NCBI GenBank assembly: GCA_026770025.1
Contig: JAMXDE010000010.1
Location: forward strand, 1,364,001 to 1,428,000
Source: Craspedostauros australis
Lineage: Eukaryota > Bacillariophyta > Bacillariophyceae > Mastogloiales > Achnanthaceae
Direction: 5' to 3'
DNA: 64,000 nucleotides
Shown here: positions 1-6,511 of the stretch, piece by piece
Position numbering within the stretch: position 1 is the stretch's first letter
Layout of the letters: each line of letters begins with the position of its first letter
The notes under the pieces: model-generated
The model's database searches: none
What the model was told of the DNA's origin: nothing
The model's input: only the letters and a program-made list of their open reading frames with translations
Program-made: the position numbers and the translations under genes

Positions 1-726
1 ATTGGCAAGCTGCGGTTCCCTACCAAGTATCCATTCAAACCACCTTCGATCTACATGCTCACGCCCAGCGGCAGGTTCGTCGTCAATGAGAAGATCTGCA
101 TGAGCATGTCGGATTTTCATCCGGAAAGCTGGAATCCTGCGTGGAACGTCGGAACCATCATCAAGGGCATCCAGTCCTTCATGTCGTCGGAAGAGCTCAC
201 GACGGGTGGCATGACGGCATCAACGGCCGCTCGCAAGAAATTCGCGTCAGTATCCATGCAATTCAACACGAAGAACTTCCCCGGCTTGTTCGATGGTGAC
301 ATAGATGGTCATCTCGCCGAAGCGAAGAAGCTGCATGATGAGCTGCTGGAGAAGAAGACGAAGATGGCAGCAGCAGGGATGGAATTGGGTGGTGGCAAGA
401 GCAATGGAACTGGAAAAGGCAAGAAGAAAGGCAGAGGCAAAGGAAAGAGCAACAGCAGCAGCAACAATGGAGATACAAGTACAAATGAAAGTGGGAGTGC
501 GGAGCAATCGGGAACCAAGGCAGAAGGAGAGGCAGAGAATGATGACAGCAAGGTTGAGCTATCAGCTGCCGAGATAGAACGGCGGAGGAAACGGAATGCG
601 AAGAAGCGAGCGAAGCGGAAGGCGGCGAAATCGAAGCAGGAAGATGGAGACGAAGTCAAAGTTGAAGGTTCAGTGGTTGAAGCGGAGGTGGAGACGGAGG
701 AGAAGAAGGATGGGAATGAACGTTGA
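1..726 (+). CDS. E2 ubiquitin-conjugating enzyme, UBE2J/Ubc6 type (5' end outside window)
   Basis: The frame is open from base 1, so the N-terminus is missing. The first residues (IGKLRFPTKYPFKPPSIYM) and the following RFVVNEKICMSMSDFHPE block match the UBE2J/Ubc6 class of E2 enzymes. The likely catalytic Cys is the TGC at 97-99. Family members work in ER-associated degradation and are normally tail-anchored in the ER membrane. Here the E2 core ends near base 340 and is followed by about 125 Gly/Lys/Ser/Glu-rich residues with no hydrophobic segment before the TGA. A soluble or nuclear form is therefore possible, and so is an unrecognised downstream exon. The family call is firm, but the subfamily (J1 or J2) is not. 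Confidence 0.9.
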   Translation: MGKLRFPTKYPFKPPSIYMLTPSGRFVVNEKICMSMSDFHPESWNPAWNVGTIIKGIQSFMSSEELTTGGMTASTAARKKFASVSMQFNTKNFPGLFDGDIDGHLAEAKKLHDELLEKKTKMAAAGMELGGGKSNGTGKGKKKGRGKGKSNSSSNNGDTSTNESGSAEQSGTKAEGEAENDDSKVELSAAEIERRRKRNAKKRAKRKAAKSKQEDGDEVKVEGSVVEAEVETEEKKDGNER

Positions 727-1709
727 ACGCTGAATGCTAAACTTTTGGTTGTGAGGATGGATGTTGATACAATACACTCATAGCAAAGCAAAGCAGATTA
801 GAGCGGAGTAAACGTTTGTAGAATGTGCTTTCTCTGGAGAGAGAGAGTGTATGCGTGTGTGTGCATGCTGTGTTGTGCTAGTAGAGGAGAAGGTATCGCT
901 GCTGAGTTTGAGTTCAACGAGGTTAATTGTATTTCTATAGGGAATGGAGAGCGTAGTTGTGATGGTGCTCTGTATTGGTAGTTGTACGGACATGCCAGTC
1001 GTACCAGAGTATCCATGTGTTGGAGCGTGTTTATCAACGTTTTTTTCTGTTGTGAGATGATTGCTTGTGATGTAGGGGAGTGACGTGTGATGTGTGGAGG
1101 AAAGGTAAGCTGGCAAGATGGTGCATTCAAAAGGACAAGGTCGGGCAAAGCAACAACTGTCGCCGGTCCCAAGTCGTTCGCTTGCCGTTACGAGTTGCCA
1201 CAAGCAATGGTATTGTTCACGGACAATGCAAAGCGCAGGGGATGGGTTAGTCTGTCGATATGATGCACGAGCACAACCAGTTCCCTCGCGTATCACTGGA
1301 TTGATGCATCGTTCATCACTTCATATGTAGGACGACAGGTGGAGGCGCCGTCCATCCATTGTCTGACGCATTTGGCTTGGTTTGGTTGCTTTGTGTGGTT
1401 GAGTAGGAACAAAAGTTCCTTGTTTGTTTGTTTGTTTGTTTGTGTTTGTTGTTTTGTTTCTGTGTTGTTTTGTCTTCGTTTTGGCCGTAAGTTGACTGCA
1501 GTAATCAGTTGCTGATGCCTGTGGTTGGTATTGTTGGTTCAAAGATGGATGGCACACATGTCATGCGCAACAGCCACACGACAAGCTCCGATGAATTCAC
1601 ATCGCTTCTCATCGTGTACTGCTACTTCATGGTTCCACGGTTCACACCCACCTGGTCCTTGCACCATCCAAGTCTCAGTCGATCATACAGCATTGCTTCG
1701 GTACAACGC
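727..1709. other. Intergenic region downstream of E2 and H2B
   Basis: The E2 gene and H2B converge here. I see no convincing coding exon. A small CT/GA hairpin lies near 828-850. The only distinctive element is the 44-nt hairpin-bearing repeat at 1389-1432, annotated separately. Confidence 0.6.
1389..1432 (-). terminator. Hairpin-bearing 44-nt element downstream of H2B
   Basis: Read on the minus strand, in the H2B direction, this contains AGGAACTTTTGTTCCT (1420 down to 1405), a perfect 6-bp stem with a TTTT loop. It is preceded by a CAAA-rich stretch and followed by ACTCAACCACACAAAG. The whole 44 nt is identical to the element at 4067-4110 downstream of H2A in the same transcript sense. There are 289 nt between the H2B stop and the stem. 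I infer a 3'-end or RNA-stability element. The function is not proven. Confidence 0.55.
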
Positions 1710-2063
1710 TTAGCTGGAGCTGAACTTGGTCACAGCCTTGGTTCCCTCAGAGACGGCGTGCTTGGCCAACTCTCCTGGAAGCATCAGGCGGACGGCAGTC
1801 TGGATCTCTCGTGAAGACAGAGTGGCCTTCTTGTTGTATGTGGCGAGCTTTCCTGCCTCGGTGGCGATACGCTCGAAGATATCGTTGATGAAGGAGTTCA
1901 TGATGGACATTCCCTTCTTGGAGATTCCGGTATCTGGGTGGACCTGCTTCAGGACCTTGTAGATGTAAGACGAGTATGTCTCGGTACGCTTCTTGGACTT
2001 GGAGGATCCGGTGGATGCCTTCTTTGGTGTCTTGGCGGATTGCTTGGAGGGAGTCTTGGCCAT
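1710..2063 (-). CDS. H2B: Histone H2B
   Basis: The product is 117 residues. It has a Lys/Ser/Thr-rich tail ([18 protein letters not shown]) and a complete H2B fold: the [30 protein letters not shown] stretch is split across helices 1 and 2, and [30 protein letters not shown] gives helix 3 and the C-terminal helix. It pairs with H2A in the nucleosome. The start is the ATG at 2063 because CAG, a 3' splice acceptor, lies directly before it and no ATG lies in the short upstream leader. The gene is divergent from H2A. There is no intron inside the coding sequence. The identification is essentially certain. Confidence 0.98.
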
Positions 2064-2259
2064 CTGCAAGTGTTATACGTGAATGTGGTGAAATTGGATG
2101 AAGAAGGAAGGGGAGTACAGTATAACAGGGACATGTGAGAAATCGGCGTTGATTCATCATGCATTGTGCACAAGTGGATTTCGATCAATTGTCCAAGGGA
2201 ATTGGGTATCGCTGATGCTTGTATTGTTCCTTTACGTTATCCTTTGTGTCATTGCTTAC
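2064..2259 (-). other. Probable 5'-UTR intron of H2B
   Basis: On the minus strand a strong donor (CAAG|GTAAGC) has its GT at 2259-2258. An acceptor, CAG, ends at 2064, immediately before the H2B ATG. The resulting 196-nt intron is almost the same length as the 194-nt H2A intron. No ATG is present in the short exon just upstream, so the intron would be untranslated. This is inferred from consensus only. Confidence 0.6.
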
Positions 2260-3231
2260 CTTGTCAGTTGTTTGGTTGTTTGGTTGTAGTGGTGGTGATT
2301 GTTGATTTGAAAGTTGTTCAATTCGGTTTTATGTTTGGACAAATGAACTTGTTTGTGTTTGAGGCAAAGACTTGGATGCGATGGAGTGCCAAGAAGGTGT
2401 TTTGTTGTGTTTGTTGTGTTTGTTGGTGGGAGAGATGGTGATAACGATGGAGATGATGATGATGATGATGATCTCAACGGCACGATTGTTGTTGGTGTCG
2501 TGCTTCTTGTCTGTGTCTCCTTGTTGTTGTTGTTCGATGTGGGTTTGGTCTGGTTCTGTTGCTGCTGATCGCTTTGGTTTCGATTTCTCTGTTCGCAGTT
2601 GCGTCCAGTATCGTGGTCTCGAACTCGACCACCACAAACAAGTGACACCAACGACGTGGACGAATTGTGAATCGGCGCGCCATTCTGAAGTGCTCCAAAA
2701 GGGGGTGATGAGATATGGCGCGTGACTGTAATATTGCGGGGTGGGATGTCGACAGGTTGGAATCGGCGAAGCAATGATGTACTGTGATGTGTAGATATAT
2801 ACGTGAGAAAGTGGCGCGCCCATCCCCGAATGATGATATACTACGGGGGTGATATTGTTCAATCACGAACAATCGACCCCGATTTTGTTGTTCTCATTCG
2901 TGACCTGACTGATCACGACGCGCTCGTTTCGAATTTGACCAAGAGAGCGTGTGGGAACGGGCGCTTCTGTTTGCCGTTTGTTGTTGACGTTTCTGTCTCC
3001 TTGTTGTCTCTGTCTTGTTTCGCCTCTCTTGTGATCTCTCGTTCGCTGTGTTTCTTCCTTTTGGTCGCTTCACTCTGTTGCACTCCCACCACTCCACAAC
3101 AGCAACAAACACGACAACAGAGACATCGAACTGTGCTGATCTGTTCATAAAACCAAACAACATCAATTTGCAACAGCAAACGAATTCACAAACACTCACC
3201 CAATCTACAACAACAAACAAACACATCAATC
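2260..3231. promoter_or_regulatory. Bidirectional H2B/H2A promoter and leaders
   Basis: About 970 bp separate the two divergently transcribed histone genes. The central part holds two perfect GGCGCGCC palindromes (2674-2681 and 2813-2820) plus GGCGCG at 2717-2722. These resemble the GC core of E2F sites and would suit S-phase control, but this is inference. The outer parts show CA-rich leaders in the sense of each gene, as in other 5' UTRs of this window. A (GAT)n run lies near 2452-2472. Confidence 0.6.
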
Positions 3232-3800
3232 ATGTCTGGTAAGTGTTGATGAAGTTGGAGTTCTGTGCGTACATGCACGTTTGTGTGTGTGCGATGTCGA
3301 ATGTGTTCTGTTTGCAACGAAAGTGACCGTGACTGCCATCGCTCTTGTGACAACCATTCCACCCTGACTTCTCACACCCATCGCCATTCCTCTTCCATCT
3401 CACACCAACCATTCAACACATGACAACAACAGGAAAAGGAAAAGGAGGCCGTGGCGAAAAGAAGGCCACAAGCGCATCTGCCAAGGCAGGACTTCAGTTC
3501 CCAGTCGGTCGTATCGGACGATACTTGCGTCAAGGAAAGTACGCCACACGAATGGGAGCAGGTGCCCCAGTGTACCTTGCTGCCGTTCTCGAGTACCTTT
3601 GCGCCGAGATTCTTGAGCTTGCAGGCAACGCCGCCCGTGACAACAAGAAGAGCCGTATTGTGCCGCGTCACATCACTCTGGCCGTGAAGAACGATGAGGA
3701 GCTGAACAGACTGCTGGGAGGAGTGACCATTGCTAGCGGTGGTGTGCTGCCCAACATCCACGCAGTGCTTCTGCCAAAGAAGTCTTCTAGCAGCAAATAA
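3232..3800 (+). CDS. H2A: Histone H2A (two exons)
   Basis: The coding exons are 3232-3238 (ATG TCT G) and 3433-3800. The intron has a GTAAGT donor and a CAACAG acceptor and lies in phase 1 after only seven coding bases. The 124-residue product starts [13 protein letters not shown] and contains [15 protein letters not shown], the acidic-patch region ([21 protein letters not shown]) in two parts, and [17 protein letters not shown]. It ends in KKSSSSK. There is no C-terminal SQ[E/D] motif, so this is canonical H2A, not H2A.X. It is divergent to H2B and shares its promoter. The tiny first coding exon means that ORF callers starting at the first internal ATG would mis-call the N-terminus. Confidence 0.97.
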
Positions 3801-4695
3801 GCGCTGGATGTCAACGCTCTCAATTGAAGGACAACGACGGAGAGAAACATGGGGAGACTGATAGATTGATTGATGGCAACTGCGATTGCACTGATGCGTG
3901 GTGTTGAGAAAGGCCATGCACTACCATACTCTACAATGAGATGGCGTGGCATGACTTCACCGATACCACCACCAGCATCACATCCATCTGTCCAACCACT
4001 CATCCCCACAACTCCATGACAATTGCAGACACACAAACAAACAGAAAACAAAAACATACAAACAACAACAAACAAACAAGGAACTTTTGTTCCTACTCAA
4101 CCACACAAAGACACACACACACACACGTCCAAACTACCAGCTGACAACCAACAACATGAATCAATGCACATTGCCCCTCTACTCTCCACCTTCGACTCTT
4201 GTTCGTCCTGACACTTCCAAACCATTATTGTAGACAACCCACGCACACACGCAGATTGGCCTTACAGCACTCTCAATACACCCAATAGACTTAACTTTCA
4301 TCACTTCACACAACTACACTCTCCATATGATTTTACTCGTACCGACACTTGTTATAACCCAGCCACCACAGCAGCACGCTGCAGAAGTCACATGCCCAAC
4401 AATTCAAACAAGAAATCAACACAACAAAAGATACCTGTCGTACTCACGCAATACATCCAGTCCCTCGACACATCACCATCTCGTGTCTCAAACATAATAC
4501 TGTTCACACCCGTGTGACAACCAGACAATCACCACCACACACATCAGCGCCATCCTCAACAAATTCACGAAACACAACAGAACAGAACAGAACGCTCCCA
4601 CCACACTCATCCCCATCATCATCACTCTGCCATCATCGCCTCCACACTAACAACAACAACAATCCCGTCAATTATCAACCCAGACTCCAACCACC
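3801..4695. other. Region between H2A and dihydroorotase
   Basis: I find no gene. The left part is the H2A 3' region with the hairpin element at 4067-4110. From about 4370 the plus strand becomes strongly C/A-rich (ACAACA, CACCACA), which looks like the 5' leader of the dihydroorotase gene, ending in CCAACCACCATG. Confidence 0.6.
4067..4110 (+). terminator. Hairpin-bearing 44-nt element downstream of H2A
   Basis: This is the plus-strand copy of the element at 1389-1432, identical over 44 nt. The hairpin AGGAAC-TTTT-GTTCCT spans 4079-4094, with 278 nt between the H2A stop and the stem. An A/C-rich 5' flank and an ACTCAACC 3' flank recall, in layout only, the metazoan histone stem-loop. Sequence identity stops just outside the 44 nt, so the block looks selectively maintained or recently converted. 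Confidence 0.55.
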
Positions 4696-6086
4696 ATGAC
4701 ATCAACATCGACACCACCACAACGCATCACCATCAGGTTCCCCGATGACTTCCATCACCACACCCGTGATGGACCTGCCACCGCTTCCATCCTCACCCAT
4801 GCAACCAAGCGTTTCTCAAGATGTCTCTGCATGCCAAACCTCAAGCCGCCGGTCGTCAACTCAAAGCTCGCTCTCGAATACAAACAACGCATCTTGGCTT
4901 CCATGCCAACTGCAACTGATGCAGATGGAGATGCAGATGCAGATACAACAACGAGCAACTTCCAACCCCTCATGACCCTCTACCTCACAGACAAGACATC
5001 GCCGGAAGATATCAAGACAGCCAGCGAGCTCAAGAATGACGATGGCACCCCCACCATCATCGGTTGCAAGTACTACCCGGCTGGTGCAACCACCAACTCG
5101 GACTTCGGCGTCACGGACGTCAACAACCTCTATCCCGTGCTGGCCGAGATGGAGAAGGTGGGGATGATGCTGTGCATCCATTCGGAGGTCACCCATGCCG
5201 ACATCTTCGAGAGGGAGCCGGTGTTCATCGAGGAGATCATGAAGCCGTTGGTGCGTGACTTCCCTACCCTCAAGATGACGATGGAGCACATTTCGACGAG
5301 GGAGGCTGTGGAGTATGTGATGTCTGCACCCTCCAACCTGAAAGCGAGCATCACATGCCATCATCTCATCTACAACAGGAATGGTAAGTGGCTGTGGTCG
5401 TGGTTGTGGTTGTGGCTGCAGATGTGGCTGCTATTGATCCACGGAATGGTTGCCGTTGATTCTGTGGATGGTTGGTGAAGTATTGGGACTGCCCATGTGA
5501 TTCTATCCCACCGGTCGGCACGATCATGGCACAGCGTAGTATGCAAACCATTGCAAGCTGTGACTCACACCACCCCATCTCTTTCCACCATCACAACCAA
5601 CACTCCAATACACACTCACGTACACTCTCACACACTCACTCACTCATTCATACACCCTCTATCACTTCAGATATGCTCGTTGGAGGCATCCGACCCCATC
5701 TCTACTGCCTCCCCATCCTCAAGGCGGAAGTGCACCGCCTCGCACTGGTGAAGGCAGCCACCAGCGGCAACCCCAAGTTCTTCCTTGGCACGGACTCCGC
5801 TCCTCACGTGACGGAGACGAAGGAGTCAGCATGTGGATGCGCCGGAGTGTTTTCCGCGCACTGCTGCATCGAGATCTACGCGAGCGTGTTTGAGAAGGAG
5901 GGCAAGCTGGACAGGCTGGAGGACTTCTGCAGCTCGTTCGGTGCTGATCATTACGGCTTGGCTCGCAACACGCACACCTTGACGTTGGAGAAGAAGTCGT
6001 GGACTGTCCCGGAGACGTACGAGTTTGGTGAGAACACGGTGACTCCTTTGAAGGCGGGAGAGGAGATCGAATGGAGCATCGTGTGA
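4696..6086 (+). CDS. pyrC: Dihydroorotase, class II (bacterial PyrC type)
   Basis: The exons are 4696-5383 and 5671-6086, joined across a GTAAGT...TTCAG intron in phase 1. Dihydroorotase cyclises carbamoyl aspartate to dihydroorotate in pyrimidine synthesis. Visible features are the metal-site region FHHHTRDG near residue 19, the carboxylated-Lys motif CKYYPAGATTNSDFG, His ligands in CIHSEVTHADIFEREP and MTMEHISTREAVEYV, then ITCHHLIYNRN joined across the intron to DMLVGGIRPHLYCLPILK, and the catalytic GTDSAPH. The length of 367 residues is a little above bacterial PyrC because of an insert (TATDADGDADADTTTS). It is a stand-alone enzyme, unlike the animal CAD fusion. No targeting sequence is evident. 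The start lies in an optimal CCAACCACCATG context. Confidence 0.95.
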
Positions 6087-6511
6087 TCAAGCGCTTGTGG
6101 CCAAACACTTCCGGGTGGGTTTAAATGCTTCTCTTCCGTATCGCATGTCTAATGGTGCCTGTAAATAATGCATCATCAGAAACGCATCCCTCTCCACTCG
6201 ATATAATCGTAGAGAGAAGCTTCCTTCTGCTCATACAATTACCATCATTGCTTGGGATCTAGATAGTCGTGGCTAGCCTGAAGTGCCATTCGGTCTTTTT
6301 GCGGCCTTTTCGTGACCAGTTCGTAGTACGTGGTTATCACGGTCCGCCAGTTCGGACGACATCACCCCACTTCAACTTTCATTTTCGCGTTGACCTCCGC
6401 AACAACAAAATCACAAACAGAAGCGAAAACTCCACGAACTATTCCGTCCTTGTGCTTCCACAAACACAACACCACATCACATCGCATCATAACACCGACC
6501 TCACCGCCACC
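6087..6511. other. 3' UTR of dihydroorotase and leader of the DUF1569 gene
   Basis: No coding exon is recognisable. An in-frame open stretch from 6269 precedes the DUF1569 start, but its translation is unlike the family and the sequence from about 6390 is a CA-rich leader. I treat it as untranslated. Confidence 0.55.

Follow-up and report, generated by a model that had tools for sequence, protein, structure and literature searches.

The 64,000-nucleotide (nt) stretch of Craspedostauros australis DNA analyzed here, which we call the window (assembly GCA_026770025.1, contig JAMXDE010000010.1, positions 1,364,001-1,428,000 of the forward strand), carries a histone H2B gene and a histone H2A gene, each followed by a copy of the same short hairpin, AGGAAC-TTTT-GTTCCT. 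This hairpin, with the sequences that flank it, is the element under study. In window coordinates, the features are:

1389-1404, minus strand: conserved 3' flank ACTCAACCACACAAAG behind the H2B hairpin, comprising the presumed cleavage region and the downstream-element-like ACAAAG (alignment of nine copies)
1405-1420, minus strand: histone stem-loop AGGAAC-TTTT-GTTCCT behind H2B (exact match, one of nine genome copies)
1421-1432, minus strand: A/C-rich 5' flank of the H2B hairpin, its last nucleotides being AACA (columns -4 to -1, invariant in nine of nine copies)
1710-2060, minus strand: histone H2B coding sequence (CDS), 116 amino acids, intronless (PF00125, E 5.9e-20)
3232-3800, plus strand: histone H2A gene; an intron of 194 nt is inferred within the CDS, at 3239-3432 (second exon frame: PF16211 and PF00125)
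4067-4078, plus strand: A/C-rich 5' flank of the H2A hairpin, its last nucleotides being AACA (alignment of nine copies)
4079-4094, plus strand: histone stem-loop AGGAAC-TTTT-GTTCCT behind H2A (exact match, one of nine genome copies)
4095-4110, plus strand: conserved 3' flank ACTCAACCACACAAAG behind the H2A hairpin, with the downstream-element-like ACAAAG (alignment of nine copies)

The H2A splice was inferred by script, and an alternative acceptor would give a 200-nt intron.

Each hairpin lies in a 44-nt block made up of 12 nt upstream, the 16-nt hairpin and 16 nt downstream. A preliminary description of this DNA had reported the blocks behind H2B and H2A to be identical, and direct comparison bears this out: the reverse complement of 1389-1432 equals 4067-4110 in all letters, and the identity ends precisely at these limits. 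The distances given there, 289 nt and 278 nt past the stop codons of H2B and H2A, belong to the hairpin, and the block begins 12 nt earlier. Allowing up to three mismatches, the hairpin has two matches in the window, at 1405-1420 (minus) and 4079-4094 (plus), and no others. The shuffle control of this search is weak when taken alone (mean 0.42; 10 of 100 shuffles with two or more matches). Since the window contains 23 perfect hairpins with 6-bp stems and 4-nt loops, the hairpin alone means little. This hairpin is the sole fold of the H2A copy's RNA, with an energy of -7.9 kcal/mol (z -3.16) that was matched by 1 of 200 shuffles, and the 60 nt upstream of the hairpin are predominantly A and C.

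Across the 74.8-Mb genome, the exact 16-mer AGGAACTTTTGTTCCT (AGGAAC-TTTT-GTTCCT) occurs nine times and its backwards control not at all; under an order-2 Markov model built on the window, about 0.04 copies per genome would be expected by chance. All nine copies lie in the sense orientation, 107-289 nt behind histone genes: two each behind H3, H4, H2A and H2B, and one behind H1. The reading frames around each site place H3 and H4 on contig 7, and H3, H4, an H1-like gene, H2A and H2B on contig 8 in addition to the H2B and H2A of the window. The H1-like protein matches the linker histone family PF00538 (E 9.9e-14). The preliminary description had proposed looking for the element behind other histone genes, its absence from all of them being the outcome that would have counted against it; instead, every exact copy stands behind a histone gene, and all eight clustered core histone genes found carry one, together with one H1. 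Its 'matching distances' do not hold as a general feature, given the spread of stop-to-hairpin distances over the nine genes.

Searches that started from the histones gave the same picture for H3 and H4. An H4 query found two H4 genes in the genome, both followed by the hairpin, and an H3 query found two full-length single-exon H3 genes, again both with the hairpin. The H3 query also recovered, on contig 12, an H3 of 92% identity in two pieces (the intron-split H3 variant) and, on contig 41, a 75%-identical CenH3-like piece with its N-terminal part missing. No site with two or fewer mismatches lies within 200 kb of either of these two genes. PF00125 matches 15 places in the genome, six in histone clusters and nine elsewhere; by coordinates, the nearest of the 31 sites with two or fewer mismatches is about 64 kb from any of these nine, a measure that does not cover hairpins of other sequence. 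Their clustering suggests that the hairpin-bearing genes are the replication-dependent ones.

The exact class alone stands out, because looser searches show no excess over controls. With up to two mismatches, the hairpin has 31 sites genome-wide against 32 for the backwards control, and the loose pattern GGAACNNNNGTTCC has at least 78 against at least 154. The flank pattern CCTACYCAAMCNMACAAAG, at up to two mismatches, has 46 matches against 72 for its control, and the histone copies are the nine sole exact ones among the matches listed. One further site, on C56, has a single mismatch (loop TTTC); it falls within an open frame of 700 codons that reaches the end of the locus examined and was dismissed as chance, as were the 21 two-mismatch sites, none of which is near a histone match by coordinates. 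Outside this genome, the 18-mer AGGAACTTTTGTTCCTAC occurs in 14 IMG/VR stretches, in none of which YCAA follows as it does in the histone copies (sequence context alone was examined), and AGGAACTTTTGTTCCTACYCAA has no matches among prokaryote genome contigs. Six of the IMG/VR contigs (L060, L063, L064, L065, L067 and L070) share one identical 18-mer context, which is unlike the histone flank.

Aligned on the hairpin, the nine copies define a conserved unit of AACA, the stem-loop and ACYCAAMCNMACAAAG, and conservation breaks off sharply 16 nt beyond the stem. Nothing varies in the 16 columns of the hairpin, in AACA at columns -4 to -1 or at column -11. In the 3' flank, 12 of 16 columns are invariant in nine of nine, one is kept in eight (ACTCA, but ACCCA behind H1) and three vary; ACAAAG occupies +11 to +16 past the stem in every copy. 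Between copies behind different histone types (32 pairs), the mean ungapped identity rises from 0.26 (150-60 nt upstream of the hairpin) through 0.38 (60-20 nt) to 0.68 in the last 20 nt, reaches 1.00 in the hairpin and 0.86 in the next 16 nt, and falls to 0.30 and 0.26 beyond. At the word lengths tried, all words of 9-20 nt common to the nine 700-nt tails overlap the element.

The nine copies are unequal as evidence. Window positions 483-6098 form a 93% identical inverted duplicate of C8:1345284-1350928, on the same contig; the window H2A is identical to its twin over the stretches compared, and the H2B is 83-93% identical to its own. Because the segment is such a duplicate, the H2A and H2B copies count for little as separate cases, and the independent evidence consists of the five histone types together with the diverged H3 and H4 pairs. 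Around the unchanged hairpin, these pairs have drifted to 51-70% of alignment columns (gaps counted), so the element has been held while its surroundings drift. The 93% inverted duplication of the H2A/H2B pair does lend something to the idea that the block is a DNA-level repeat, spread among histone genes by gene conversion or duplication and devoid of RNA function. We give this idea almost no credence: exact copies occur nowhere but at the 3' ends of histone genes, in sense every time and behind five types, the H3 and H4 duplicates have diverged around a constant hairpin, and the genome contains genes for SLBP.

The human histone stem reads GGCUCU/AGAGCC. The algal element shares with the metazoan histone stem-loop (RF00032, Histone3) its position behind H1, H2A, H2B, H3 and H4, a 6-bp stem with a 4-nt U-rich loop and G at stem position 2, and an A-rich 5' flank with an ACYCA 3' flank (ACCCA behind H1). 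It also resembles it in being absent, at two or fewer mismatches, from the neighborhood of the H3 variant and of the CenH3-like gene. It differs in its purine-rich 5' arm and in standing also behind H2A genes with a putative intron. Human binding involves two unpaired A residues 5' and one A 3' of the stem, according to the available part of one account (PMC10388802); here, A is found at -1 and +1 in nine of nine copies, but C at -2 in nine of nine. By the Rfam model the element falls outside RF00032, yet in anatomy, position and predicted partner protein it is alike, and we infer that it is a divergent homologue of the animal histone stem-loop.

A genome search with PF15247 identified two SLBP genes, both on contig 1, near positions 2914157 and 3508507, so the SLBP homologue that the preliminary description suggested seeking is present twice. 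With exons joined, the paralogues match PF15247 (SLBP_RNA_bind) at E 9e-24 and 2.2e-23 (83.8 and 82.5 bits; cut-off 27), covering positions 3-70 and 2-70 of 70. An inferred intron lies within the domain at the same place in both, and the two domains are identical at 60 of 78 residues. The reading frame of the second paralogue ends shortly after the domain in the splice used. Both match the PDB SLBP chains 4l8r, 4qoz, 4tv0, 4tux and 4tuw, from human and Drosophila. Like animal SLBP, they have a near-complete RNA-binding domain with the motifs GKNT, VPK, TP and W-R-ALH-YDP. They differ from human SLBP in being two, in having TPDH where TPNK stands in the gapless part of the 4l8r alignment, and in having Lys for Arg181, the second R of YSRRSW as counted from Thr171 of TPNK.

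G7 of the animal RNA is the second stem base, and the second stem base is G in all nine algal copies. In human SLBP, the two Arg181-G7 hydrogen bonds are described as the sole base-specific ones, and Thr171 phosphorylation raises affinity (PMC10388802, available text). In the alga, a G7-type contact could be kept via lysine.

In animals, the position downstream of the hairpin carries the U7-binding downstream element, and in the alga this position is occupied by the invariant ACAAAG. For U7 small nuclear RNA (snRNA), RF00066 gave a single match among the 65 of 4424 candidates that were scored; it reaches 21.3 bits (E 0.87) where the cut-off is 34, and 12 of 14 control prokaryotes also match. 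It forms a strong hairpin with no visible Sm site and is not usable as a U7 candidate. CTTTGT combined with a U7-type Sm site occurs at one place (C57), which folds weakly and is not usable either. A looser U7 pattern gave nine places (4 + 5) against 1 + 1 for the control, representing eight distinct strings, and, judged by duplex energy against the histone flanks, two of the eight could form a slightly bulged duplex along most of the 16 nt. The first, of 37 nt, lies at C32:493999-494035 (minus) and identically at C37:17926-17962 (minus), and consists of CTTTGT, a stretch able to pair with the histone 3' flank and a canonical-looking Sm-like AATTTCTGG; equally good pairing was obtained with 11 of 400 shuffled spacers and with 13 of 400 random ones. 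For the second, at C7:1272941, the figures were 26 and 10 of 400, respectively. After eight tries, such pairing is near chance and provides a lead, not a finding; the C32/C37 string is possibly a U7-like RNA or possibly a plain repeat.

We consider it very probable, from sequence comparisons, that the element is the alga's replication-dependent histone-mRNA 3'-end signal, divergent from that of animals and bound by SLBP. The preliminary suggestion of a lineage-specific processing or stability signal, akin to the SLBP-bound stem-loop, draws support from the distribution over histone genes and from the two SLBP genes. As we picture it, the 6-bp stem with its UUUU loop would form in otherwise unstructured A/C-rich RNA and would be bound by one or both SLBP paralogues. 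Cleavage of the pre-mRNA would probably fall close to ACYCA, a few nucleotides beyond the stem, leaving a histone message that ends in the hairpin, has no poly(A) tail and would be subject to S-phase control. ACAAAG, 11-16 nt past the stem, stands where animals have the histone downstream element (HDE) and is probably the site at which the machinery for cleavage docks.

Several observations weigh against an SLBP-bound 3'-end signal. RF00032 gave no match at E <= 10 either in 30 kb or in a 61-nt stretch alone, and none over the cut-off of 34 genome-wide (75 of 6752 first-look candidates scored); three genome places reach 15.8-17.7 bits, none at histone clusters, and all 14 control genomes also match at that E. 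The stem AGGAAC/GTTCCT differs from the animal one in five of six pairs, and its distance from the stop codon (107-289 nt) is longer than is usual in animals. Arg181 aligns with Lys in both SLBP paralogues, with the charge kept. The nine stems are identical and offer no covariation, so selection on structure and on primary sequence are not told apart. The changed stem pairs and the missing RF00032 match would also suit a transcription terminator, or the RNA site of another protein, unrelated to SLBP. This seems improbable to us. Hairpins of 6 bp with 4-nt loops behind histone genes are the known target class of SLBP, and the alga has kept a G at position 2, a U-rich loop and an ACYCA flank. 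Moreover, with no animal-type hairpin over the cut-off among the candidates scored, the terminator explanation would leave two SLBPs without an evident target.

On the same side of the balance, no U7 snRNA was established by family search, strict and looser patterns or duplex scoring, and weaker poly(A)-signal variants occur downstream in five of nine genes, although the lineage's real signal may differ. In Phaeodactylum, histone H4 mRNA serves as a reference for quantitative reverse-transcription PCR, which does not point to an unusual mRNA (PMC4247016, in the part available). In an alternative explanation, SLBP binds the hairpin as an element for stability or translation within a longer, polyadenylated histone mRNA, without hairpin-directed cleavage. 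The lack of an established U7 favors it, as does the precedent of C. elegans, where an HDE-like element and AATAAA are both close to the hairpin and experiment was needed to settle the mRNA ends, according to the accessible text (PMC1924863). Yet AATAAA or ATTAAA, which may not be this lineage's signal, is found between stop and hairpin in none of the nine genes and within 400 nt downstream in just one, and conservation that runs 16 nt past the stem and then stops fits a cleavage signal. We regard a polyadenylated message as unlikely. It shares the SLBP-binding step with the 3'-end signal that we prefer, so our estimates for the two overlap and need not sum to one.

A more specific form of the SLBP-bound 3'-end signal can be put forward tentatively, with reservations that slightly outweigh our confidence in it. 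The SLBP-RNA pair may have been recoded, with five of six stem pairs swapped across the histone set, the single base-read position kept, and Lys replacing the reading Arg in both SLBPs. The new ACAAAG code would then be read by a very divergent U7, for which the C32/C37 strings are one lead, or by a U7-free mechanism.

The lack of poly(A) on histone messages is usually presented as a feature of animals, with some cases among protists. In the C. elegans histone 3' untranslated region, the hairpin is followed by a conserved AATCC at the HDE position (PMC1924863, accessible text). Common to both systems are a hairpin in a 32-36-nt conserved region and a second short block at the putative U7 site; the algal block differs in being ACAAAG, and in eight of nine algal genes AATAAA or ATTAAA is not within 400 nt downstream. 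For Perkinsus marinus, histone stem-loops have been reported, and none in dinoflagellates, in the available portion of PMC6723414. That case extends hairpin-ended histone mRNAs beyond animals, but in another lineage. The term 'stem-loop' is absent from the main text, as far as it is accessible, of a paper on algal H2A (PMC12459048). A literature search found nothing, in the texts available to it, on SLBP or a histone stem-loop in diatoms, Phaeodactylum, Thalassiosira, stramenopiles or algae; Davila Lopez and Samuelsson 2008 (RNA 14:1-10) may already describe such stems. The novelty therefore lies in the sequence variant and its partner protein, not in the idea of protist histone stem-loops.

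If the proposed signal is real, an alga would have the full set, with H1 and every core histone type, two SLBPs and a stem wholly unlike that of animals, which would suggest that the system is old. It would also indicate that the RNA code of the system is open to rewriting with the fold and a single contact preserved, and would provide a natural test of the shape-recognition model for SLBP. RNA sequencing with poly(A) selection would under-count these histone genes if their messages lack the tail.

Three minor observations concern the surroundings of the element and the searches. The inferred intron of the hairpin-bearing window H2A lies directly after ATGTCTG, and the ATGTCTGGTAAG start is shared by its twin gene; for mammals, replication-coupled H2A genes are reported to be intronless (PMC12459048, accessible part). 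Among the two-mismatch matches of the flank pattern, the string CCCACCCGAACCAACAAAG occurs at eight places on eight contigs and is perhaps an interspersed repeat. The duplicated segment contains, besides H2B and H2A, the end of a ubiquitin-conjugating-enzyme-like gene and the start of a dihydroorotase-like gene, both neighbors being named by eye.

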